From the IMG/VR virus record IMGVR_UViG_3300032047_000156, positions 1 to 22,077 of that record: a DNA stretch of 22,077 nucleotides. One strand, 5' to 3'. Each line of letters begins with the position of its first letter. The first letter of the stretch is position 1. The notes under the pieces were generated by a model. It saw nothing but the letters and a program-made list of their open reading frames with translations. It was not told where the DNA came from and did no database searches. Both the position numbers and the translations under genes were made by a program. The stretch comes from a virus. This document shows, one piece after another, positions 2,747-21,874 of this stretch.

Positions 2747-3160
2747 TTATTTGTGTTTGTTATTTCCGAATACTTTCTCCACTCCTCGAGATCCGAAATA
2801 TCCTCCAATTACTATTGTAAGTAATCCAGTTATAGAATCCAACGGGTAACCCATGTACCATCCTGCTACATAGCTAACTGTTAAAAACACAAGAACTAAA
2901 GGTCTTACGTTTGAAGCTAGCCAAGAGCCTGATCTTGCATCAGCCACCCATCTTTTTGTTGTGCCGTCTATTTCAGCACGTTCCATTTTTAATTTTTCAA
3001 GAGCAATTTCTTTATCAGCATCGCTCATATCTGAACCGCCGATTATAGCTTGTATTACAGAGCCAACAGGTGTGTCACCAGCAATAGCTCCAACGACGCT
3101 GGGTATTTTATCTAATAAAAATTTTCCAACGCCGGTGTCTTTAAATTTTTTCTTTTCCAT
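2747..3160 (-). CDS. Holin-like membrane protein (resembles the three-TM holin / GTA holin family)
   Basis: 137 residues. The N-terminal 45 residues are Gly/Ala/Ile-rich and amphipathic (SVVGAIAGDTPVGSVIQAII), followed by a charged helix (SDADKEIALEKLKMERAEID, 46-65). Then come SGSWLASNVRPLVLVFL and two membrane segments at about 86-104 and 108-123, ending GGYFGSRGVEKVF. The W-x-x-x-x-RP entry to the first membrane helix and the GG-x-F-x-x-R-x-x-E end are typical of the 'holin of 3TMs' family as I know it. Function: pores in the inner membrane that let endolysin reach the wall. It lies just before a 48-residue membrane protein and the endolysin. Its ATG at 3160 overlaps the stop of the large fiber gene as TAATG. 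Confidence 0.82.
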   Translation of the reverse strand: MEKKKFKDTGVGKFLLDKIPSVVGAIAGDTPVGSVIQAIIGGSDMSDADKEIALEKLKMERAEIDGTTKRWVADARSGSWLASNVRPLVLVFLTVSYVAGWYMGYPLDSITGLLTIVIGGYFGSRGVEKVFGNNKHK

Positions 3161-6100
3161 TATTTTATTGCTAAATAGATGTAGGTTTCTCCACTACCAT
3201 TCCATCCTGAATTACTTGTTGATAATTGAAACCCATCGCTTAAAAAACTAAATCTACCTGCATATGTAGTGTCAGCATTAGATAAGTTAGGAAACAATAC
3301 AATATCATTTCCTCTTGAAGTATCGTATATCATCCAATTATCTGATAAGGATGTCGGTTTAAGTATTACAAATCTTGGAGCAAATCCTGTTGTAACTGAT
3401 AATGTCCCTCCATTCCCTGTATAACTCCCTATCTTCTGATAACCTGTTACAGAGTGGAAGCAGTATGCGATAAAAGGACTACTACTTGCATTTGAACTAC
3501 TACTCACACCAACAGTAAAAACAGTTGAAGTAGGAGCAACTCCCACATCAGCTGGATAACCAAACAAACTACCTGTACCACTTTCACCTCCTGTAGAATT
3601 TAATTCCATATGTTTTCCTGTTCCCATAGCAGTATGGTAAACTATCCAAGGGTTTGTTGAATTTAATCTTTTTAAGATAATCATTTCAGGAGCAGAAGAA
3701 AGTCCGTGTCCTATCGTATTGTTTACAGCTAATCCTGTTCCCGTATATTTAACAATACTAAACCCTGCCTCTGCATTTACACTTACTATACTATCTATAG
3801 TACCCTCTGTGTTTATCTGTGGGAGGTTATCATCGTGGTCTCCTGCTTTCCAAGCCCAAGCAACGTAGTCTATTCCATTACGATTTACGTCAAAATAAGG
3901 AAAAGATGAATTTGTCCCTGCACCTAAATGAAATCCATTAGAATTATATTGAGTAACTGCTCCTTGATAAGTAGATGTTTCTTCAGCGTAGGTTTGGTTG
4001 CCATATAGTGCATAACCACCATTGCCAAATCTAACACTGTCAAATAAAGAATGATTAGCCGAACCCTCAACAGGGTCTGCAGTTCTCGCTTTTACCCATA
4101 TAAGGTCAGGTTTAAAATCTAATGAAATATCTCTATCATTTCCATCTCCTGTCCAAGTAACAACATCAAAGCTATTCTCTACTGTTGGAGTTGTAGTATC
4201 AGGGTCTGCTGCTATAGCAAGGTAGATGTATTGTCTATTAGTACCGTTTAAAGCGTTGTCATTACTTGCTAATTCAAAGCCATTAGATAAAAAAGTAACT
4301 CCATTACCAGTACCTAAAGATGATTCTTGGTGACTATCTTGAGCGTCTAAAAAAGCATTGTTATTCACAGGAGCGTGTCTTTTGTTATCTGCTATTAACC
4401 ATCTGTCTCCCTGTAATCCTTTAATCATTATAAAAGCAGGCTCAAATCCTGTTTCCACAAAATTACCTTCAGAACTTCCTGTCCCATCATAGCTACCGAC
4501 TTTTTGGTATCCGTCTACGCTGTGGAAGTTGTAATTTATATGTCTTGAACTTACACCAATATTAAAAGAAGAACTACCTAAATCAATTTTACTTGTATCT
4601 ACTGATAAAAAATTAGGCGAATAAGAAGTAGCTGCTGCAGTTGTAAATCTTAACTCTTTTTGCCCTAAAATTAAAGGTGCATAAATAAACCAACTTCCTG
4701 ATGAACCTGCATTTTTAACTATAATAAATTCAGGAGCTTGAGAAAGTCCGTGTCCCCAAGAGGGTTTCCCACTTGAGGGAGTTGTAAATTCACATATTGA
4801 AAACCCTGCATCTTGATTTGCTTTTACTTGTGACGTAACCGCAGTTACACTTCCTGATGTCACCCCATCGTTATTAGTAGCTGCTGCACCTTCTCCTGCA
4901 TTGAAACACCAAGCTACCATTTTATTATTAGCACCACTTGCACCACCATTAAAATATCCATCATTTCCTAAAGAAAAACCATTATTATCAAAAGATATTA
5001 TTCCGTTTGAAGAAGTTAGTTCTTGAGATGATGAATTAGATTGCAGATACTTTGTATTTCCTCTAACAGAATCTGTTAAGACGTGCGGATAACTTGAACT
5101 GTCCCTATTCTTAATCCAAATTAAGTCAGGACTAAAATTAGTAGCCTCTTGATAAGTTACGTTTGTAGCAGTACCATCATAAGCGTATTTAACGTTAGTT
5201 GCAGTACCATCGTATAGTTGTTGTTCATCTCTTGCATCCCCGTCTAATTTGTAGTATGCAGTTAGGTTATCTGTTGGTATAGATGCAGTATTGTTGTTGT
5301 AAATATATCCTACTTCTGTTGAGGTTAGTACGTCTGAATATATTCTTACATCGTCTATTTCTCCGTCCCAATACCATTGATTACCTCCACTATCTTGATT
5401 GCCTCCTATATTAAATTGATTTAAATCTGATGGCATTACTATTGTTGAAGAAGATGAACCTATATCATAATTTACTGTAATTTCATTCCCATCAACATAT
5501 AGCTTATTTCCGTTTGAATCAGCGGTAAAAACAGCGTGATGCCAATTACCATCTCTTACACTTGAACCTGATATGTTTTCTGCTTGTACTTGATTTGCTC
5601 CATCATTTATATTTCTAAAACCAACTGTATTTACATCTAATCCTAAAAATAAATCAGTAGAACCATCCCCTGTGGCACTAAATGAAACAATAGTCATTCT
5701 TCCTGATGAAGCTGATGTTTTAAACCAAGCAGATAAAGATAATGTTGTTTGCCCTCTGTAATCAGTACCTAAAGATGTGTTTTTAATTATAGAACTACTC
5801 CCATTAAATATAGCAGCTTCTCCAAACTTACCACTTACTCCTCCTGTATCATTAGCATTTCCATCTAATTGGTATAAAGCAATAGCTGAACTATCAGAGA
5901 ATATATCGGTAACTGATTTAGATGCTGAAGCAAATGTTTCTCCGTATAGAGTAGTTACTTCGGTAGAAGATAGCGCTTTGTTAAAGAATCTTACTTGGTC
6001 AAATTTACCATCTATTCCACTACTGCTCCTTCCTATGTAAATAGGTTCTGTACCACCTTGATTAATGGCATTTGTGCGAGTCATTGTTTTATTAAGAGAA

Positions 6101-6564
6101 CCATTCAAGTAAAATTTAGCTTCCGTACCTGACCTCGTGTATACCATATTATACCATTGACCTGCACTAATAGTCCCCGAAGCAGCGCTTTGCGAATAAC
6201 TTGTAGTACCATCTCTTTCTATAAACTCAATAGCACCATCAGATTTTGTTCTAAATAAAATCACTACTCCCGGTGAAGCACCCCACTTACTAATTATTCG
6301 TTTATTATCACCAAGCGTGTCTAAATAAATCCACCAAGACATAGACCAATCTTCAGTAGAAAAATCTATTGGTGTTGTATCAGTTGAGGGTATTGAAATC
6401 TCACTACTACTACCATTAAATACCGCCCCTCTATTTATATACCCACCTATACGTTGAGTACTTGGTCTGTTACCTGTATAGAGTACAGTGTTAAAGTTTT
6501 CTGAAGCAAAAGTATTTGCTCCGCCACTAATAGGTCCAGAGTTAATTAGTTTTTTACCAAGCAT
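3160..6564 (-). CDS. Large tail adhesin: two LamG-like domains plus duplicated beta block
   Basis: 1134 residues, the largest protein here. Two concanavalin/LamG-like domains sit at about 45-205 and 228-425; each starts around GAVFNGSSS or AAIFNGSSS, has a WYNMVYTRS or WHHAVFTAD strand, then FYLNG or LYVDG, and ends in DQVRFFNKALS or DDVRIYSDVL. Residues 434-471 look like a shrunken third LamG start (AYYKLDGDA then duplicated YDGTATNV). The rest is two ~310-residue copies (477-785 and 817-1134), each made of sub-blocks: PDLIWxK...DSVR, AWxxxAG, GHGLSxAPExIIxK, FHSVxGYQKxGSY, then FLSxGFxL...YIYLAI. This resembles a repeat found in marine phage proteins that I know as DUF7483-like, named from memory. 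LamG folds often bind sugars, so host-surface binding is likely. Its start overlaps the stop of the preceding gene (TTAATG). Confidence 0.85.
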   Translation of the reverse strand: MLGKKLINSGPISGGANTFASENFNTVLYTGNRPSTQRIGGYINRGAVFNGSSSEISIPSTDTTPIDFSTEDWSMSWWIYLDTLGDNKRIISKWGASPGVVILFRTKSDGAIEFIERDGTTSYSQSAASGTISAGQWYNMVYTRSGTEAKFYLNGSLNKTMTRTNAINQGGTEPIYIGRSSSGIDGKFDQVRFFNKALSSTEVTTLYGETFASASKSVTDIFSDSSAIALYQLDGNANDTGGVSGKFGEAAIFNGSSSIIKNTSLGTDYRGQTTLSLSAWFKTSASSGRMTIVSFSATGDGSTDLFLGLDVNTVGFRNINDGANQVQAENISGSSVRDGNWHHAVFTADSNGNKLYVDGNEITVNYDIGSSSSTIVMPSDLNQFNIGGNQDSGGNQWYWDGEIDDVRIYSDVLTSTEVGYIYNNNTASIPTDNLTAYYKLDGDARDEQQLYDGTATNVKYAYDGTATNVTYQEATNFSPDLIWIKNRDSSSYPHVLTDSVRGNTKYLQSNSSSQELTSSNGIISFDNNGFSLGNDGYFNGGASGANNKMVAWCFNAGEGAAATNNDGVTSGSVTAVTSQVKANQDAGFSICEFTTPSSGKPSWGHGLSQAPEFIIVKNAGSSGSWFIYAPLILGQKELRFTTAAATSYSPNFLSVDTSKIDLGSSSFNIGVSSRHINYNFHSVDGYQKVGSYDGTGSSEGNFVETGFEPAFIMIKGLQGDRWLIADNKRHAPVNNNAFLDAQDSHQESSLGTGNGVTFLSNGFELASNDNALNGTNRQYIYLAIAADPDTTTPTVENSFDVVTWTGDGNDRDISLDFKPDLIWVKARTADPVEGSANHSLFDSVRFGNGGYALYGNQTYAEETSTYQGAVTQYNSNGFHLGAGTNSSFPYFDVNRNGIDYVAWAWKAGDHDDNLPQINTEGTIDSIVSVNAEAGFSIVKYTGTGLAVNNTIGHGLSSAPEMIILKRLNSTNPWIVYHTAMGTGKHMELNSTGGESGTGSLFGYPADVGVAPTSTVFTVGVSSSSNASSSPFIAYCFHSVTGYQKIGSYTGNGGTLSVTTGFAPRFVILKPTSLSDNWMIYDTSRGNDIVLFPNLSNADTTYAGRFSFLSDGFQLSTSNSGWNGSGETYIYLAIK
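3163..5136 (-). repeat. Duplicated ~310-residue beta block in the LamG-like adhesin
   Basis: Residues 477-785 and 817-1134 of the 1134-residue protein show the same order of sub-motifs: PDLIWIK/PDLIWVK, then AWCFNAG/AWAWKAG, GFSI, GHGLS, APE, FHSV-x-GYQK, SY-x-G-x-G, an 'FLSNGF/FLSDGF' near the end and YIYLAI. The copies are diverged but collinear, so this is an internal duplication rather than a recent copy. Confidence 0.8.
5159..5216 (-). repeat. 33-base tandem duplication encoding YDGTATNV twice
   Basis: Two near-identical units, 33 bases apart, at 5159-5181 and 5192-5216, sharing GCAGTACCATC and flanking bases. In the protein they give YDGTATNVKYA and YDGTATNVTYQ (residues 451-472). They lie in what looks like the remnant of a third LamG start, between the second LamG domain and the repeat blocks. 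Confidence 0.75.
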
Positions 6565-7785: not shown

Positions 7786-9873
7786 TTAGTTAAATTGTAT
7801 ATTACCTGTTCCTGCCGTAAATGTAGTTACCTTATCCGTTCCATCTGTGGCAGTTGTTCCGGTTAATCCAGATCCTATAGTGACTGTGTGCGTATTGGGA
7901 TAGCGTAAAATTACAACTCCCGATCCTCCAGATCTTGCCTGGCTAGCATTTTGCTCACCACCTCCAGCTCCTCCACCTGTGTTTGGAGTTCCGTTGGTAG
8001 CGTTATTTTGAGCATTACCCGTTCCACCAGTTCCTCCTCCTCCGGAGCCACCAGATCCACCAGTGCTATAATAACCACCGCCACCACCACCGCCAGCATA
8101 TGTGACAGATGATCCAGTAATTGAAACAGCTAAACCAGCCCCTCCAACACCTCCTTGACTTGGATTGCTACCACCAGAAGCATTACCTCCAATAGAACTA
8201 GCACCCCCGCCGCCAGTTCCAGCAACAGCTCCTGTGTCTGGACCGCCGGCATAACCTTGACCAGAAGTACCTGACCCAGGTGTGAAAGAGTTGCTATTAC
8301 CTCTACCTATACCACCTCCAGATCCTCCTGTAGCACCATTCCCATTTCTATGTGGTCCACCACCACCATTAGATGTTATTGTAGAAAAAACAGAATTAGA
8401 ACCATTTAATGGACTGCCTCCAGATGATGCTAAACCGGCACCTCCGGCACCAACTGTCACCGTATAATTTGTAGCCGCTATCGGTAAAGATAAAGACGTT
8501 TCGGCAGATTCTCCACCACCAGAAGTATTCCCATAAGATGTGCGTAAACCGCCAGCGCCGCCCCCTCCGCTTATGTCACTTGTTGCCCCAGCACCTCCAG
8601 CAACTACTAAATAGTCAACATTAATAGGTTGTTGTTCTGTAGTTTCAAATGTAATGTTACCTGTGCCTGATGTAAATGTTGTTACTCTATCTGTTCCAAC
8701 TGTTGTAGTTGTTGATGTTAATATTCCTGGTTTGTGTATAAAATACTCAGAAGGATAGCGTAGAATTACTACTCCAGAGCCACCAGCTCCTCCAGTATAC
8801 GTTCCACCAGTAACTGTTGTAGCTCCACCTCCACCGCCTCCAGTGTTATTAGTTCCGTTACTTCCACCGCCATTTGTAGATGCACCATTACCACCGCCAC
8901 CAGTTCCGCCAGATCCTCCAGATGACTCACCACCACCGCCGCCTCCACCAGCATAGTAATTTCCAGTTCCCCCAATAATATTAACTTCTAATCCAGCTCC
9001 GCCATCTCCAGCATTACCAGACGATCCATTTCCACCAACTGCTCCAGCACCACCACCTCCTCCAGCGGAAGTTAAAGCTCCAGCATTATATGCCATCCCT
9101 AATCCACCAGAATAACCTTGAGTTGTTGGGGATGTTACAGCTGAGCCAGCGCCTTGATAAATTGCGTTATCATAGGATCCCTCACCACCACCAGAGCCTC
9201 CATCAGTTCCTGCTGCTCGAGCAGTACCACCACCACCACCGCCAGTTGCAGTTACAGTAGAGAAAACTGAATTATTCCCATTATTTCCACCTTGTGTGTA
9301 TCCTGTGCCACCTGTACCACCAGGCCCAACTGTTACAGTATAATTTGTTGCTATTAATAACGATAATGCAGTTTCAGCTGAACCTCCACCTCCTGTTGTA
9401 GATCCGTATGATGTTCTCAAGCCTCCAGCTCCACCTCCACCAGCATTTGTATTGTTTGAGGCAGATCCACCAGAACCACCACCACCAGCTACTACCAAAT
9501 AGTCAACAACTAAAGGAGCAAGATCTTTTATAATATTATCTGCAGTCCATCCTTTTGTTGTATCCTGATATACAAGGGTTACAGTAGAGTTATTAATTAT
9601 ACATCTAGAATTATCAGTTAATCCTTGTATTTTTTCAGAACCATTAGCAGCTAGGGAAAGTTTATTAGTTGCAAATGTACCAGCATAGTCTTGTATTACT
9701 ATTTCAGCGCCTACAACACCTGCAGGTAGAGTAACTGTAATTTCAGCACTAGTAGTATTAACAAAATAACCTTTACCTGCAACAGCAGTAAAATTACTTG
9801 TTTGAATTGTTTCAACCCAATCTGTGCCAAATGAAGCGTCAATTAATTCTTTCTTTATTTTAGTTTGTGCCAT
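7786..9873 (-). CDS. Gly-rich tail fiber with two Gly-rich domains
   Basis: 695 residues. Residues 1-118 hold a beta domain (TVTLPAGVVGAEIVI...LVYQDTTKGWT) shared with the end of the 704-residue protein. Two Gly-rich domains follow, at about 123-374 and 419-659. Each opens DYLVVAGG, then has AGGLRTSYG, YTVTVG, NSVFSTxT, a long GGGG-rich stretch and a closing SGVVILRYP. Each is followed by a ~37-residue strand module ending VTTFTxGTGNIxF (375-411 and 660-695). Such Gly-rich folds may form polyglycine-II lattices, as in the receptor-binding tip of some T-even phage adhesins, so this is probably a distal fiber tip. CCN-triplet runs on the plus strand (8075-8094, 8930-8950, 9227-9243) could slip in frame and vary length. 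Confidence 0.82.
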   Translation of the reverse strand: MAQTKIKKELIDASFGTDWVETIQTSNFTAVAGKGYFVNTTSAEITVTLPAGVVGAEIVIQDYAGTFATNKLSLAANGSEKIQGLTDNSRCIINNSTVTLVYQDTTKGWTADNIIKDLAPLVVDYLVVAGGGGSGGSASNNTNAGGGGAGGLRTSYGSTTGGGGSAETALSLLIATNYTVTVGPGGTGGTGYTQGGNNGNNSVFSTVTATGGGGGGTARAAGTDGGSGGGEGSYDNAIYQGAGSAVTSPTTQGYSGGLGMAYNAGALTSAGGGGGAGAVGGNGSSGNAGDGGAGLEVNIIGGTGNYYAGGGGGGGESSGGSGGTGGGGNGASTNGGGSNGTNNTGGGGGGATTVTGGTYTGGAGGSGVVILRYPSEYFIHKPGILTSTTTTVGTDRVTTFTSGTGNITFETTEQQPINVDYLVVAGGAGATSDISGGGGAGGLRTSYGNTSGGGESAETSLSLPIAATNYTVTVGAGGAGLASSGGSPLNGSNSVFSTITSNGGGGPHRNGNGATGGSGGGIGRGNSNSFTPGSGTSGQGYAGGPDTGAVAGTGGGGASSIGGNASGGSNPSQGGVGGAGLAVSITGSSVTYAGGGGGGGYYSTGGSGGSGGGGTGGTGNAQNNATNGTPNTGGGAGGGEQNASQARSGGSGVVILRYPNTHTVTIGSGLTGTTATDGTDKVTTFTAGTGNIQFN

Positions 9874-9875
9874 AA

Positions 9876-12335
9876 TTAACTAAATGTTATTGTTCCAGTT
9901 CCAGCTGTGAAAGTTGTTACTTTGTCGCTGCCATCAGTAGCTGTGCTACCAGTTAATCCAGAGCCTATAGTTACTGTGTATGCATTTGAGTAGCGTATAA
10001 TTACTACCCCAGAACCGCCATTACCTGCTCCATTACCTTGATAAGATCCATCTCCTCCATTTCCTGTATTACTAGCTGCATTAGGTCTTCCTCCAGGATT
10101 TGTATTACCACCACCTCGCCCTCCTGCGGCATAAGTTACAGATGAGCCAGTTATAGAGACAGATAAACCAGCGCCACCATTAGTTCCACCACCACCAGAG
10201 CCTGAGCTAGAACCCACGCCGCCAGCACCTCCTCCACCACCACCGAAAGAGGCTCCTCCAATATGACCGTTTCCACCGTTATAACCTTGATTTGCAGTAC
10301 CACTTCCAAACAAAACTCCTGTTGAGTCGGTATAGTGATAAGCCGTACCTCCTCCTGAACCGCCATTAGCTCCAGATTGACCACTATATGTTCCACCAGA
10401 ACCAGCAGGATTTGCTGCGGCACCGCCACCACCTCCACCGATTGAAGTAATATTACTAAATACTGAGTTGTTTCCGTTAGCACTGCCGGTTCCAGAAATA
10501 CCTTTATTACCTCCACCACCTACAGTAACCGTATAGCTATTGCCTAATGCTAACGTTAAAGCTGATTCTGCTGAGGACCCTCCACCCGATGCGCTTCCAT
10601 AAGATGTTCTTAAACCTCCTGCACCACCTCCACCAGCTATATAAGATCCACCACCTCCACCACCAGCAACTACTAAATAGTCAACAATGGGAGGAACGAC
10701 TGTAGCTGTTAATCCAGATACTATAATACCAGTGTTTAATGCATTAGCAGAAGGATATACCCCTTCTAATGTTATGGTTAAAACATTCCCTGCATTATTA
10801 TTGTTATATGATTGTGAAGCAATTGTAACTCCCGTAGGTAATCCTGTTAAAACAGCAGTTCCGCTTAACGTATTTGCAGCTTTTGTTATTGTAAAAGTTG
10901 TTGTTGGAAATATTGATCCAGCTTGACCTATAGAACTTTGAGGTGAAGGATTAGTATATGTTAAACTTTGGCCGCTTGGCGTGGCCCATGAAACAGTCAC
11001 ATCCACTAGAGTATTACTTACAGTAAAATTATTAGGTGAATTAGTTACTACACTTATACCAGTACCTCCTGTTATAGAAACAGCAGGGGCTAATGATATA
11101 GCACTAAATGCCATTACCTCAACAGTATACCCATTCTGAGGAGCTGTTGAAAATGTAATAGTATTACCACTTATGCTATACATACTTTTCTCCTGGTATA
11201 CACCTTGTATAAATACAAATGTTTTATTTTCATCATCAATGCTTTGAGATAGGGTAAACGCTGTTGTTGACCCGTTTCCTGTAAAGCTATTTTGATTTAA
11301 TGAAGAAGCATCAACTGCTTTTATATGAACAACCTCTACGGCAGCACCGCTCGGCGGTGCGGTGGAGAACGTTAATGTGCTACCGGAAGTTGTATAATTA
11401 TTTTTACTTTGATAAACACCATCAATGTATACTTGTGTGGCATTCTCATTTGTGATGCTCATAGAAAGCACGAATGCTGTTGTTGAACCATTACCTGTAA
11501 AACCATCTCTAGCTATTACACCATCAACCGCTACCATGTGTATCAATTCAACAGACGTTGTATTGGGAGGTGCTGTAGAAAATGTTACAGTACTCCCATT
11601 TGTAGTATAGTTATCTTTTGATTGGTAAACACCATCTATATATACTTGAACATTGTTTTCATTTACAATTGCAGTTGAAGTATTAAATGTTGTAGTTGAT
11701 CCGTTTGCTGTATATACATTTTTTTCTACAGTTACACTTCCACCACCTCCACCCGAAGAAGCTATTTCAACTTCTTGCGCGCTGCTTCTAGTAAGTGTAA
11801 TATTATTACCAGCTGTAAGTTGTACTGTTGAATCCGTACCAGACCCAGCATCTAATAGTATATCAACGTTATCACCATCTTGTGTAGCGCTTAATGTATA
11901 CGTATCCCCCTGTGATCCTGTACCAAATTTTGTATAACTACCCATTAAAGCATGAGCAGAGCATTGGTAATATAATATAGGTGGAGTAGATGCTGAAGGT
12001 ATTATTTGAGTATAAGCACCTGAATTTCCTGGTGTACCGTTTGTAGTTACTCCTGTTGTATATGCCGTTGTTTTTGCAGCATCTTGATAAAATCTAAGTG
12101 GATGTCCTGTGTTAGAATTATCTGATTGATCAAACTTATAAGTATTGCCTGGAGTAAATTCAAGATATGCTCCCTCAACACCATCTATTACATATCCGTT
12201 AGAGCTACCGTTACCATACTCTGGGTGTGCGGCGGTTTTTGTAGCGACAGTAACCGTAAGTGTCTGAGCAGCATCGCTGTGTGCTATTGCCCGGTGTGCC
12301 GAAAGCTCTAAATGCGATCTGAATTTAACACTCAT
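9876..12335 (-). CDS. Multidomain tail fiber: cupredoxin-like N-domain, three 72-residue repeats, Ig-like and Gly-rich domains
   Basis: 819 residues. N-terminal: MSVKFRSHLELSAHRAIAHS with three His. Residues about 25-136 resemble a cupredoxin: TLTVTVATKTAAHPEYG, LEFTPGNTYKFDQSD, TGHPLRFYQ (His78), then ILYYQCSAHALMGSY with Cys125, His128, Met131. Residues 206-411 are three tandem 72-residue repeats (F/YTxNGSTT..., VYIDGVYQSK, TFSTAPP, VExxHxxAV). Residues about 446-545 are an Ig-like domain (VSWATPSGQ...GLPTGVTI...LTITLEG) closely matched in the 403-residue protein. Residues 550-790 are a Gly-rich domain and the C-terminus is the SGVVIIRY...VTTFTAGTGTITF module. Likely a receptor-binding or accessory tail fiber. 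Copper binding is an inference from ligand spacing. Confidence 0.83.
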   Translation of the reverse strand: MSVKFRSHLELSAHRAIAHSDAAQTLTVTVATKTAAHPEYGNGSSNGYVIDGVEGAYLEFTPGNTYKFDQSDNSNTGHPLRFYQDAAKTTAYTTGVTTNGTPGNSGAYTQIIPSASTPPILYYQCSAHALMGSYTKFGTGSQGDTYTLSATQDGDNVDILLDAGSGTDSTVQLTAGNNITLTRSSAQEVEIASSGGGGGSVTVEKNVYTANGSTTTFNTSTAIVNENNVQVYIDGVYQSKDNYTTNGSTVTFSTAPPNTTSVELIHMVAVDGVIARDGFTGNGSTTAFVLSMSITNENATQVYIDGVYQSKNNYTTSGSTLTFSTAPPSGAAVEVVHIKAVDASSLNQNSFTGNGSTTAFTLSQSIDDENKTFVFIQGVYQEKSMYSISGNTITFSTAPQNGYTVEVMAFSAISLAPAVSITGGTGISVVTNSPNNFTVSNTLVDVTVSWATPSGQSLTYTNPSPQSSIGQAGSIFPTTTFTITKAANTLSGTAVLTGLPTGVTIASQSYNNNNAGNVLTITLEGVYPSANALNTGIIVSGLTATVVPPIVDYLVVAGGGGGGSYIAGGGGAGGLRTSYGSASGGGSSAESALTLALGNSYTVTVGGGGNKGISGTGSANGNNSVFSNITSIGGGGGGAAANPAGSGGTYSGQSGANGGSGGGTAYHYTDSTGVLFGSGTANQGYNGGNGHIGGASFGGGGGGAGGVGSSSGSGGGGTNGGAGLSVSITGSSVTYAAGGRGGGNTNPGGRPNAASNTGNGGDGSYQGNGAGNGGSGVVIIRYSNAYTVTIGSGLTGSTATDGSDKVTTFTAGTGTITFS
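11100..11720 (-). repeat. Three tandem 72-residue repeats in the 819-residue fiber gene
   Basis: Residues 206-411 hold three copies starting at residues 206, 278 and 350. Shared positions include NGSTTxF, an acidic/Asn step (NEN or DEN), VYIDGVYQSK (third copy FIQGVYQEK), NYTxxGSTxTFSTAPP and a VExxHxxAV end. Copies one and two are most alike; the third has diverged. They probably form a beta-rich stalk. Confidence 0.85.
11928..12263 (-). other. Cupredoxin-like domain encoded in the 819-residue fiber gene
   Basis: Residues about 25-136 of the fiber. The predicted ligand set is His78 (GHPLRFY), Cys125, His128 and Met131 (YYQCSAHALMG), which resembles type 1 copper sites: a His on an early strand and a Cys-His-Met loop near the end. 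The C-x2-H-x2-M spacing is shorter than in plastocyanin or azurin. The gene context is a phage tail fiber. The same sequence type occurs in other marine phage structural proteins as I recall. Metal binding is inferred. Confidence 0.55.
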
Positions 12336-15231: not shown

Positions 15232-16443
15232 TTAAGCAGAATATGATCCGTTGCCAGTCCATCTTATTACAGTATCGCTTCCAGATGTAAAAGAGGTATA
15301 AGCTCCTGAGGGTGTCCCTAAATTAGAAGTCGGAACTCTTAAAATAACCACACCTTTATTTCCTGTAGCATTTGTTCCACCTTGAGCAGAGCCATAATTA
15401 TTAGAATACAGTTGGCCTGTACCCCATCCTGAACCATAATAATAAGTTGAACCCGTTATTGAAACAGCAAGTGCAGTACCTGATCCTCCTGTTCTATTAT
15501 TAGATTGGAATTGTGTAGGCGTGCTTCCTCCAGCACTAGCCGTACCTCCACCTCCAGCAAATCCTGATGCGTTTCTACCTCCATTTACATTCCCACCATC
15601 AAATCCTTCATCAGCATTACCAACTCCTCCGCTAGCATATACATAACTTAAATTCCCAGAATATGTTCTACCACCACCGCCGCAGCCTCCATCAGCACCA
15701 TTTGCTGTTCTTCTATTTGCGAAAGAAAAAGGATCTGGGGTATCTGATCTACCGTTAGCCCCTCCTTCAACTGATTTGTTAATTGACCCCCCAACAATAC
15801 TTGCATTACCTCCTTTTAAAGCGTAATAAGTTGTTCCTTGATATGAAAAACTTTCGGCGGTAGAATGATTTGCTACGGTTATAGAATAAGTAGTACCCGC
15901 TTCTAAAGAAAGTTGACTTTCTGCAGCTGATCCACGTCCAGAAGTAGATCCCCAAGAGGTTCTTAACCCACCAGCGCCGGCTCCATAATTAGTTCCACCA
16001 CCACCTATCATTAAGAAATGTGCATTGTAATTTGTAGCTGCTGTTATACCAGTAATATTTAACACAATATTAGTATAACTATTAGGAGGATATGCTCCTG
16101 TTAATGTAATGGTAATTGTATTACCAAGCCCTCCCCCGCTGTTTGTTTGATTAGACACCGTTATACCAGGAGGTAATCCAGAAACAGTTGCTGTACCTTG
16201 GAGGTTAAAAGAAGGATCTGTTATTGTTAAAGTAGTTGTTGGTATGGCTTGACCAGCATCCCCTGTTGAAGTTTGGGGAGTTGGCACAGAATAAGTATAA
16301 CCCTGACCAATTGGCGTAGCCCAAGAAATAGTAGTTTGGTTTTCATAAAATAAACTTGTACCCTTGTAACCATCCTCAACCTCAGTAGACCCTTTGTATA
16401 AGTTTCCTCCGGTAATCTCGCTTGTTCCTTTATATAATGGCAT
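15232..16443 (-). CDS. Gly-rich tail fiber with YKGT repeats and Ig-like domain
   Basis: 403 residues. The N-terminus carries three short repeats: LYKGTSEITGGN (3-14), LYKGSTEVEDG (15-25) and YKGTSLFYENQT (26-37), a repeated adaptor motif known from phage fiber N-termini. Residues about 38-137 are an Ig-like domain (ISWATPIGQGYTYSVPTPQ...GLPPGITVSNQ...ITITLTGAYPP) nearly collinear with residues 446-545 of the 819-residue fiber. Residues 141-370 are a degenerate Gly-rich domain (FLMIGGGG, AGGLRTSWGS, YSITVANH, then GGGG stretches and KGVVILRVP). It lacks the long uninterrupted Gly tracts of its relatives and contains more Asn, Arg and Tyr. The C-terminal strand module (SFTSGSDTVIRWTGNGSYSA) is shortened. 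Likely a receptor-binding fiber tip. Confidence 0.78.
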   Translation of the reverse strand: MPLYKGTSEITGGNLYKGSTEVEDGYKGTSLFYENQTTISWATPIGQGYTYSVPTPQTSTGDAGQAIPTTTLTITDPSFNLQGTATVSGLPPGITVSNQTNSGGGLGNTITITLTGAYPPNSYTNIVLNITGITAATNYNAHFLMIGGGGTNYGAGAGGLRTSWGSTSGRGSAAESQLSLEAGTTYSITVANHSTAESFSYQGTTYYALKGGNASIVGGSINKSVEGGANGRSDTPDPFSFANRRTANGADGGCGGGGRTYSGNLSYVYASGGVGNADEGFDGGNVNGGRNASGFAGGGGTASAGGSTPTQFQSNNRTGGSGTALAVSITGSTYYYGSGWGTGQLYSNNYGSAQGGTNATGNKGVVILRVPTSNLGTPSGAYTSFTSGSDTVIRWTGNGSYSA

Positions 16444-19596: not shown

Positions 19597-20043
19597 TTAT
19601 TTTTTCTTGTTAAACTCTTTTATAGCTTGGCTGTACACTTTATCTATGTACGTTTCCCGTTTCATTATTTTATTTCTCTTCGCTGAAGTTGGAAGATCTT
19701 CTTCACCTATTAGTATTCTATATATTTTATTTATAAGTAATTTACCTCTTTGGCTGACTTTATATTTATTATGATCCCCTCTACGGCCACCTCCATTGTG
19801 AGATTTATTTATCCATCCTTGTTTTTGTAATCTATAGAATCTTTCTTTATCCCAAGTATAAAACAATGTACCTGTTTTAAAATCATCTATAGTGAAATAA
19901 ACAATAGGGTCTAAATAAAATAATAATTCTAAATCTGCAACAGATAAATCATTATTTTTGCAAGCCCACCTAGATACTAATCTATAATATTTAAGAAAAT
20001 CAACTTTAACTTCGCCTCTTTGAGCAAAATCAGTTCTTTCCAT
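19597..20043 (-). CDS. Winged-helix DNA-binding protein (MarR-like fold)
   Basis: 148 residues. Residues about 15-115 follow the MarR-type winged-helix order: a helix (KYYRLVSRWACK), LSVADLELLFYL (33-44), a helix around TIDDFKTGT, a recognition helix DKERFYRLQKQGWINKS (65-81), then a basic Gly/Arg wing (NGGGRRGDHNKYKVS, 83-97) and a closing helix (RGKLLINKIYRILIGEEDLP). This probably binds DNA, perhaps controlling late genes, or acts in a virion complex. I have seen similar proteins near chaperonin or tail genes in marine phages, but cannot name a studied member. Start ATG at 20043 overlaps the groES stop (TAATG), tying its expression to the chaperonin pair. Confidence 0.72.
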   Translation of the reverse strand: MERTDFAQRGEVKVDFLKYYRLVSRWACKNNDLSVADLELLFYLDPIVYFTIDDFKTGTLFYTWDKERFYRLQKQGWINKSHNGGGRRGDHNKYKVSQRGKLLINKIYRILIGEEDLPTSAKRNKIMKRETYIDKVYSQAIKEFNKKK

Positions 20044-20297
20044 TATAATATAGCTACAATATCACGCAAATTAATTACTTTATAAATATTACTATCGTGT
20101 TCAACCGGATAACCAGCTATTCTATCAAAAAGTACTGTTTGTCCTTTTTTAAGTATATCCGGCCCAGAAGACACAATATTTGCTTTTCTATACCTAATGT
20201 CCTCCCTGTGCTTTTCAGCCAGTTCTAAGCCTCCCTGTGTCTTTGTGGAGGTCTCTACGACTTCTTCTAAAACTACATAATTACCTATTGCTTCCAT
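20043..20297 (-). CDS. groES: Co-chaperonin GroES
   Basis: 84 residues, shorter than the usual ~95. It caps the GroEL ring to close the folding chamber. The start is typical (GNYVVLEEVVETSTKTQGGL). The mobile loop lies at about 14-32 with the hydrophobic GroEL-binding tripeptide LEL (residues 24-26) where bacterial GroES has IVL. The core then follows: RKANIVSSGPDILKKGQTVL (38-57), FDRIAGYPVEHDSNIYKVI, and the closing strand RDIVAIL (78-84). The roof loop between strands is short, which accounts for the lower length. It overlaps groEL by one base (TAATG), directly downstream of groEL; bacterial operons have groES first. A phage co-chaperonin may tailor the chamber for capsid or fiber proteins. 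Confidence 0.9.
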   Translation of the reverse strand: MEAIGNYVVLEEVVETSTKTQGGLELAEKHREDIRYRKANIVSSGPDILKKGQTVLFDRIAGYPVEHDSNIYKVINLRDIVAIL

Positions 20298-21874
20298 TAT
20301 TCTCTAATATTACTAATTACACAATCAGTTGATAGAATAGTAGTGGCTACAGAAACAGCATTGTTTAAAGCAGTTTTTGTAACGAGGAAAGGATCTATAA
20401 TTCCTTCGTCTCGCATATTTCTTGCGCATCCACAGGTTACATTAACACCTTCACCCCATTTACTTAAATTGAAGTTTTCAGGTTGTAACCCAGCATTGGA
20501 TAATATTTTTGTATATGGCGCAACTAAAGCATCTTTTAAAATTTCAAGACCCGCTAGTTCGTCTTGATTTAATTCCATTTGCCAATCGGTTTGAGCTGCA
20601 TATGCTAATGCAGAACCTCCGCCTGGTAAGATACCTTCTTTCCTCGCTGCTTTAACAGCGTGAATTGCATCATCTACTCTGTCTTGCTTTTCTTTAAGTT
20701 CAACTTCAGTATCAGCACCCACGTATACAATGGACACGCCACCGCATAATAATGCCAACCTGTCGTTCAAATGTTTAGACAACAGTTTATTGTCTTCTTC
20801 ATCAAGAGCAGTTTTTAAATATTCGATACGTTCTAGTGCTTCCTCTGATTTTTCAGAGATAACTAAAACTGTACCCTCGCTATCTGAAAGAGCCTTATCG
20901 GCTTCTCCTAACATGTCAGGGGAGATTGCATCAATCGAGTCCCCAAGGCTTTCGTCAAAAACTTTAGCCCCGACAAGCAACGCTAGATCTTCTAGTATAT
21001 CCTTTCGCTTAAGTCCGAAGCTGGGTGGATCTATTACGTTGACCTTAATATTGCCCTTTACTTTATTCATTGCTAGCGCAGTTAACGGCTGCGATTCTAA
21101 AGGTGCAATAAGGAGTATGCTGCGGTTAGACTTAATAGCATGCTCCAGGATGTCTTGAATTTTTCTTATATTTGGTATTTCTGATGCACTAATAAAAACA
21201 AGTGGTTTATCTAGTTCCGCTGTTTCTTTTTCTTTATTAGTGTAAAAGTGAGGGGTTTTGCAGGTACTACCAACTTTTGTGCCTTCTACGGTGTCAACAT
21301 ACGTTTGATTGTTTGGAGAAGTTTCCATAGCCACAATTCCATTGTCGCCTGAATTTTCAAAAGCTTTTGCAATAATGCCCCCAAGCTCTGCATCATTATT
21401 TGCAGATATTGTAGAAACGTTATACAGTTCTTCATTATCAACTTTTACTGCTTTATTAGATAAAAAATCTATTACATGAGATTTAAACTTATTAATCCCA
21501 CTTTTAATATCTCTAAAAGAACGTTCGTTTCCTTTACTTTTATTATAACAGTCGATTATGGCCTGTGTTAGTACTATGGAGGTGGTTGTACCATCACCTG
21601 CCATACTCGCTGTTTTTTGAGCGGCTTGTTTCATCATTGAAACGCCTAAGTTCTCAACGGGGTCGTTGAGTAATATTGAGTTAGCAACCGTAACTCCATC
21701 TTTAGTTACGTAAGGGTTACCAAAGTCATCTTCAATAACCACCGTTCTACCGCTTGCTCCTAGTGTAGAACCTACAGCATCTGCTATTTTATTTATTCCG
21801 TTTGATAGCCTATCTTTCGCTTCATTATTAAAATGAAGTTTTTTGACAAGCTTGGGTCCTCCAAATTGTGCCAT
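20297..21874 (-). CDS. groEL: Chaperonin GroEL
   Basis: 525 residues (E. coli has 548). ATP-driven folding chamber, here probably for phage virion proteins. Key parts are present: ASGRTVVIED (40-49), the ATP site GDGTTT (93-98, Asp94 equivalent to E. coli Asp87), apical domain helices (IRKIQDILEHAIKSNRSILL, then LTALAMNKVKGNIKVNVIDP), and the GroEL signature RVDDAIHAVKAARKEGILPG, followed by GGSAL (399-423), including the catalytic Asp near 401-402. The C-terminal end is NNAVSVATTILSTDCVISNI, then RE, with no GGM-repeat tail, as in other phage GroELs. groES and a winged-helix gene follow with one-base overlaps. The start is ATG at 21874 after an A/T-rich leader with five TTAAT units (plus-strand reading) and no Shine-Dalgarno sequence. 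Confidence 0.95.
   Translation of the reverse strand: MAQFGGPKLVKKLHFNNEAKDRLSNGINKIADAVGSTLGASGRTVVIEDDFGNPYVTKDGVTVANSILLNDPVENLGVSMMKQAAQKTASMAGDGTTTSIVLTQAIIDCYNKSKGNERSFRDIKSGINKFKSHVIDFLSNKAVKVDNEELYNVSTISANNDAELGGIIAKAFENSGDNGIVAMETSPNNQTYVDTVEGTKVGSTCKTPHFYTNKEKETAELDKPLVFISASEIPNIRKIQDILEHAIKSNRSILLIAPLESQPLTALAMNKVKGNIKVNVIDPPSFGLKRKDILEDLALLVGAKVFDESLGDSIDAISPDMLGEADKALSDSEGTVLVISEKSEEALERIEYLKTALDEEDNKLLSKHLNDRLALLCGGVSIVYVGADTEVELKEKQDRVDDAIHAVKAARKEGILPGGGSALAYAAQTDWQMELNQDELAGLEILKDALVAPYTKILSNAGLQPENFNLSKWGEGVNVTCGCARNMRDEGIIDPFLVTKTALNNAVSVATTILSTDCVISNIRE

Follow-up and report, generated by a model that had tools for sequence, protein, structure and literature searches.

A tail-fibre-like protein encoded by an uncultured phage of aquatic origin bears, near its N-terminal end, a domain (residues 20-140) that we judge likely to be a cupredoxin, complete with a type 1 copper site, that serves as a module of the fibre and most likely binds copper. 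The protein is encoded in the window analyzed here, i.e., the whole 22,077 nucleotide stretch of IMG/VR record IMGVR_UViG_3300032047_000156, and relatives of the domain recur in other phages; the most likely overall reading is that of a metal-competent cupredoxin module of the type 1 copper kind in the adsorption apparatus of aquatic phages. Cupredoxins are well known, as is the construction of phage fibres from mobile beta modules; an intact copper signature that is spread through the baseplates and fibres of marine phages is new within the literature searched. A search for cupredoxin-type phage domains, with most subscription journals and all preprints outside its coverage, found no description, and a copper-related family name for the domain was found in none of Pfam, PHROGs, and NCBIfam. 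This unnamed blue-copper signature is present even in long-studied cyanophages, including P-SSM2, Syn9, and S-RIM2, and hundreds of hypothetical and fibre genes would gain a fold and a testable activity for a structural domain that has had no name.

The fibre gene and the predicted fold of its N-terminal domain

The domain is encoded in an open reading frame of 819 aa on the minus strand (window positions 9876 to 12335), which was assigned to the tail fibres based on matches to PHROGs family phrog_30742 (E 8e-22) and Pfam family PF03906 (E 1.8e-6) and which also matched phrog_2295. On the same strand, an N-terminal peptide (residues 1-19, positions 12279 to 12335; MSVKFRSHLELSAHRAIAH, with a close clade consensus of roughly MGIKFxSPLELSxHRxI) precedes the cupredoxin-fold domain (residues 20-140, positions 11916 to 12278), which is followed further along the protein by repeats with similarity to DUF4183 and to the N-terminal domain of T7 tail fibres (residues 208-410, positions 11106 to 11714; PF13799, E 1.2e-14, and PF03906) and by a glycine-rich fibre domain (residues 551-782, positions 9990 to 10685; PF21722, E 3.7e-7). 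A Pfam search found no enzyme domain in this protein. The preliminary description of this DNA had proposed that three histidines of the N-terminal peptide, His8, His14, and His19, could provide additional metal binding; we rejected this cluster as a metal site because His8 and His19 are not conserved, with Pro replacing His8 in every close relative listed and His19 replaced in several, while His14 is kept throughout. An intrachain disulphide involving Cys125 was also ruled out, as this residue is the single cysteine of the whole fibre.

Glycine-rich regions of the GGGGAGG type are alike in three nearby genes (7786-9873, 9876-12335, and 15232-16443), the first two of which also match Gly_rich_2; this suggests that fibre modules have been shuffled among the three genes. 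With regard to the virus itself, it likely infects Bacteroidota, because, among named isolates, Cellulophaga and Flavobacterium phages have the terminases nearest to its own, at less than 60% identity. Elsewhere in the window, a 1134-aa protein (3160-6564) that contains two Laminin_G_3 lectin domains and matches DUF7483 strongly (E 8.6e-153) is probably another receptor-binding or decoration protein; a Peptidase M15-type, endolysin-like gene is found at 2251-2595 (E 5.2e-14); and adjoining GroES-like (Cpn10, E 4.2e-10) and GroEL-like (Cpn60, E 1.9e-57) genes, which represent a phage-borne chaperonin pair, are located beside virion genes at 20043-21874.

The AlphaFold2 model of the domain, for which a 63-row domain alignment thinned at approximately 70% mutual identity was used as input, has a mean pLDDT of 92.9 and a pTM of 0.86 and shows a beta-barrel with nine predicted strands, consistent with the beta-rich stretch that had initially been noticed. 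His78 (12102 to 12104), the putative first copper ligand, lies directly before predicted strand 5, and Cys125 (11961 to 11963) lies at the end of predicted strand 8, while His128 (11952 to 11954) and Met131 (11943 to 11945), a putative ligand and the putative axial ligand, respectively, are both in the C-x2-H-x2-M loop that joins predicted strands 8 and 9. The four residues previously proposed as a ligand set could thus be located at their codons, and their arrangement in the model corresponds to that of type 1 copper sites.

A Foldseek search of the PDB with this model identified rusticyanin as the top match (E 6.5e-4). Next came pseudoazurin, a three-domain nitrite reductase, and plastocyanin, together with multicopper oxidases, and a small number of immunoglobulin-type domains ranked lower; the best matches, to solved cupredoxins, had a probability of 1.00 and moderate TM-scores of 0.4-0.5. 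Assignment to the cupredoxin fold, as anticipated in the preliminary description, was made by this fold search. Fold matches among viral models were fibres and baseplate proteins, mostly from cyanophages, and included a MED4-213 relative annotated as an immunoglobulin-domain protein. Beta-sandwich proteins of Marseillevirus LCMAC201/202 and Pithovirus LCPAC302/304 (BFVD A0A481YWX9, A0A481YY19, A0A481Z6J5, and A0A481Z7Q7) also matched the fold, with E values from 9e-9 to 6e-7.

Conservation of the putative ligands and probable kinship with copper proteins

F68, H78, C125, H128, and M131 are the sole invariant columns in the 63 homologues that remained after thinning at approximately 70% identity, and the complete His/Cys/His/Met set was found in 199 of 201 distinct copies; one of the remaining two ends at a contig end and the other has lost its ligands. 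As some of the search peptides included ligands, the searches were repeated with ligand-free queries. When the N-terminal half of the domain was used as query, 79 of 80 loci showed the full set, with one locus cut after C-x2-H by a contig end; when the strands between His78 and Cys125 were used, the full set was found in 78 of 78 complete copies, with two more copies cut. This count includes three copies in which a shifted profile start had hidden the first His, which inspection of their sequences showed to be present. Both queries combined thus gave all four ligands in 157 of 157 complete copies, from loci that overlap those found earlier and that hence represent an unbiased check and not additional lineages. 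A query that ended before the motif likewise found C-x2-H-x2-M in all 80 loci of the gp9 C-terminal domain. Over all loci together, the complete ligand set is present in 357 of 376 distinct copies, and none genuinely has two or three ligands; four copies scored as having three either stop early, at the end of a contig or locus, or carry an additional residue ahead of Met. Free replacement of individual ligands, one of the two outcomes that the preliminary description had named as refuting its proposal, was not seen in these sets; the other, a predicted fold unlike that of cupredoxins, was not seen either. In about 91% of copies, the first His is followed by Pro, whereas blue copper proteins usually have Asn at this position; an unusual spectrum would therefore not be surprising.

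Sequence comparisons with known copper proteins gave a graded picture. The window domain did not match Pfam Copper-bind (PF00127) or Cupredoxin_1 (PF13473) above the curated cut-off, and a PDB search with the single window sequence yielded chance matches only; the best PDB match of the window profile, to pseudoazurin 3tu6 (E 0.085-0.096), was aligned on YxYQCxxHxxMG and is suggestive only. A shorter sister form of the domain, which ends in C-x2-H-x2-M-x-G-x-I-x-V, was found in P-HM1, P-SSM2, and a lake Actinomycetia phage, and gp9-like baseplate connectors of T4-like cyanophages also end in this form. Two sister phage domains scored slightly under the Copper-bind cut-off (20.2 and 20.8 versus 21.2 bits), and Bacteroidota proteins of the sister type (L527 and L530) exceed it. 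In profile-profile comparisons, the window family matched the sister domains, in a profile that contains both Bacteroidota proteins, with a probability of 99.6% (E 5.7e-25); the sister domains in turn matched plastocyanins and pseudoazurin-like proteins, represented by sequences drawn from genomes, with 96.7% (E 3.7e-10), and the direct comparison of the window family with the latter gave 90.3% (E 1.4e-6). Judged from these profiles, the link of the window domain to copper proteins runs via the sister group.

The gp9 C-terminal domain, modelled separately with AlphaFold2 (pLDDT 88.4), is consistent with this link; nearly all of the matches listed for this model are cupredoxins, including rusticyanin (E 3.3e-5), amicyanin, plastocyanin, CuA domains, and multicopper oxidases. 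The gp9 domain also aligns with the Nitrosopumilus copper enzyme 9cck on CTLHxxMxGTIxV (E 0.28). The Pfam At5g54830-like domain showed weak matches in 12 of 30 members, with E values down to 1.4e-4.

Distribution in aquatic phages and the possible role of the site

The preliminary description placed a cupredoxin-like domain in a phage fibre; while the domain is indeed present in the window fibre, this description was too narrow, as the domain is widespread in virion proteins of aquatic phages. A search of 50,697 phage records with the window domain gave 37 matches, all marine by name, including phages of Synechococcus, Prochlorococcus, Pelagibacter, and Methylophilales as well as marine single-cell viruses. 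With a cyanophage-type query and a permissive cut-off (E values up to 1), 392 records were identified, a count that takes in ligand-less paralogues; almost all of these are cyanophages and the others are marine or unnamed. Three queries of IMG/VR yielded overlapping sets of 316, 254, and 476 confirmed relatives. The domain thus recurs in virion proteins of cyanophages, pelagiphages, and OM43 phages as well as in hundreds of IMG/VR contigs, with one to five copies per phage in the 14 phages that were searched whole. Its carriers are fibres and proximal fibres, wedge proteins of the baseplate, gp9-like connectors, and further proteins of the virion or of hypothetical annotation; those annotated in isolate phages are mostly fibre, baseplate, or other virion proteins. 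In the Actinomycetia phage DSL-LC01 (L250), a single protein combines a YHYH domain with a ligand-complete cupredoxin-like domain.

Overall, the domain is almost wholly confined to aquatic phages. A plasmid search gave no match, and the domain was also found in cellular assemblies, some contigs of which are probably phage. In SAR86 bacteria (L236 and L229), it occurs among metabolic genes as a small stand-alone lipoprotein, a form that is usual for copper proteins that are exported; these lipoproteins are scarcely more than the domain, and the one in L236 (L236:5818-6363) lies beside lipid-metabolism genes and is followed by a large exported protein. These lipoproteins are possible cellular relatives of the phage module. 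In Flavobacteriaceae, the domain is found within very long repetitive proteins.

In the reading that we judge likely, a cupredoxin module sits near the start of the fibre, and several divergent subfamilies of it have been built into fibres, baseplate connectors, and wedge proteins. From the sequence, the predicted fold, the invariance and all-or-none loss of the ligands, and the spread in virion proteins, we infer copper as the metal, loading of the virions with it, and some role in adsorption; copper is the likeliest metal because of the fold and the ligands. The Pro after the first His, the moderate TM-scores, the lack of a Pfam copper match for the window domain, and the paralogues without the Cys-His-Met loop count against this reading. 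Because the cytosol, in which phage proteins fold, contains very little free copper, acquisition of copper after lysis, from the lysate or from seawater, would be the likelier route. Candidate roles for the bound copper are to stiffen a module that is exposed, to make contact with metal-uptake or other surface groups of the host, and to buffer redox state. The wider proposal that many aquatic phage virions, including those of many T4-like cyanophages, have loaded type 1 copper sites that are used in attachment or in redox sensing or buffering is put forward tentatively, with the balance of our judgement against it. Ocean virions may carry copper, and if the sites do bind it, copper ligands would be pooled in marine virions, and attachment of phages could hinge on a scarce metal.

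Among the alternatives to a type 1 copper module, we consider a purely structural site, i.e., a cupredoxin fold in which the conserved His2-Cys-Met set holds zinc, iron, or Cu(I) and has no redox or receptor role, to be somewhat unlikely. Invariance of the ligand set is consistent with such a site, the presence of the domain in many different virion proteins is what would be expected of a stability module, and the metal reported for T4-type HxH fibres is iron (PMC11705849); on the other hand, the closest folds and the profile matches are copper proteins, and one Cys, two His, and one Met with amicyanin spacing form the established signature of type 1 copper. It is less probable, and in our view unlikely, that the metal-loaded domain specifically represents a host-contact device that exploits host metal uptake or surface chemistry, as a copper Trojan Horse; this would be a narrower version of the preferred copper-module reading and is compatible with it. 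The predominance of fibre, baseplate, and other virion annotations among isolate-phage carriers and the near restriction of the domain to aquatic phages are in favor of this role, and an iron version of the idea has been published (PMC11705849), but the domain of gp9-type connectors and wedge proteins may be located within the baseplate and not at a tip that binds receptors, and in the window protein it is located at the N-terminal end of the fibre, which is usually proximal to the virion.

Loss of the site in some paralogues bears on a further alternative, that of a metal-free, Ig-like beta-sandwich adhesion or spacer domain in which the ligands are a relic. The Cys-His-Met loop is gone as a whole in fibre paralogues from four cyanophages (S-RIM2, Syn9, S-CAM22, and P-RSM4), although the P-RSM4 paralogue retains His at the first ligand position, and further copies without the loop were found in Syn1 (one), P-HM1 (one), and an IMG/VR contig (L040, which keeps Met only). 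The fold can therefore serve in virions without metal, and the MED4-213 relative bears an immunoglobulin-domain name. A relic would erode residue by residue, however, whereas the copies found here have all four ligands or have lost the whole loop, and the ligands are retained at 18-35% identity to the window domain; since loss of the loop as a single unit fits a metal site and not a slowly eroding relic, we regard the metal-free alternative as improbable. A group of cyanophage fibres (L519, L512, L246, and L510), which has kept the sequence family and lost the Cys-His-Met loop, provides a natural metal-free control. Finally, a chance likeness of His plus CxxHxxM in an unrelated beta domain, conceivable for a short motif in a fibre of biased composition, is refuted by ligand invariance with ligand-free queries and by the predicted cupredoxin fold, and has next to no probability.

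Comparison with known metal-binding and modular proteins

The predicted fold of the window domain is similar to that of the type 1 copper proteins amicyanin, pseudoazurin, plastocyanin, and rusticyanin, with which it shares a His before a middle strand, a Cys that ends the penultimate strand, and His and Met in the last loop. The C-x2-H-x2-M spacing is equal to that of amicyanin, whose loop is spelled CTPHPFM in the title of PDB entry 2vmj. These cupredoxins are exported electron carriers, whereas the phage domain is a module of virion proteins and has a putative site with Pro rather than Asn after the first His. A cupredoxin is likewise found as a fused module in the Hyphomicrobium three-domain nitrite reductase and in Nitrosopumilus 9cck, whose loop (CTLHPWMKGTISV) aligns with that of the gp9 domain (CTLHAQMQGTINV); in both enzymes, however, the cupredoxin is fused to a copper enzyme, while no enzyme domain was found in the phage protein. 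The Ig-like structural domains of phages are, like the domain described here, mobile beta-sandwich modules of virion proteins, but are not known to have a conserved metal site.

The closest idea in the literature is the iron Trojan Horse proposed for HxH fibres (PMC11705849). These fibres, including those of T4 gp37 and Alteromonas phage R22Y (the Ferrojan or Trojan Horse hypothesis), share metal-binding residues in a fibre and a marine setting with the window fibre, and differ from it in fold, motif, and metal; based on all of its His positions, the window fibre contains no HxH, with no two His spaced two residues apart. Metal-loaded phage fibres thus have a precedent, with iron, in the HxH fibres.
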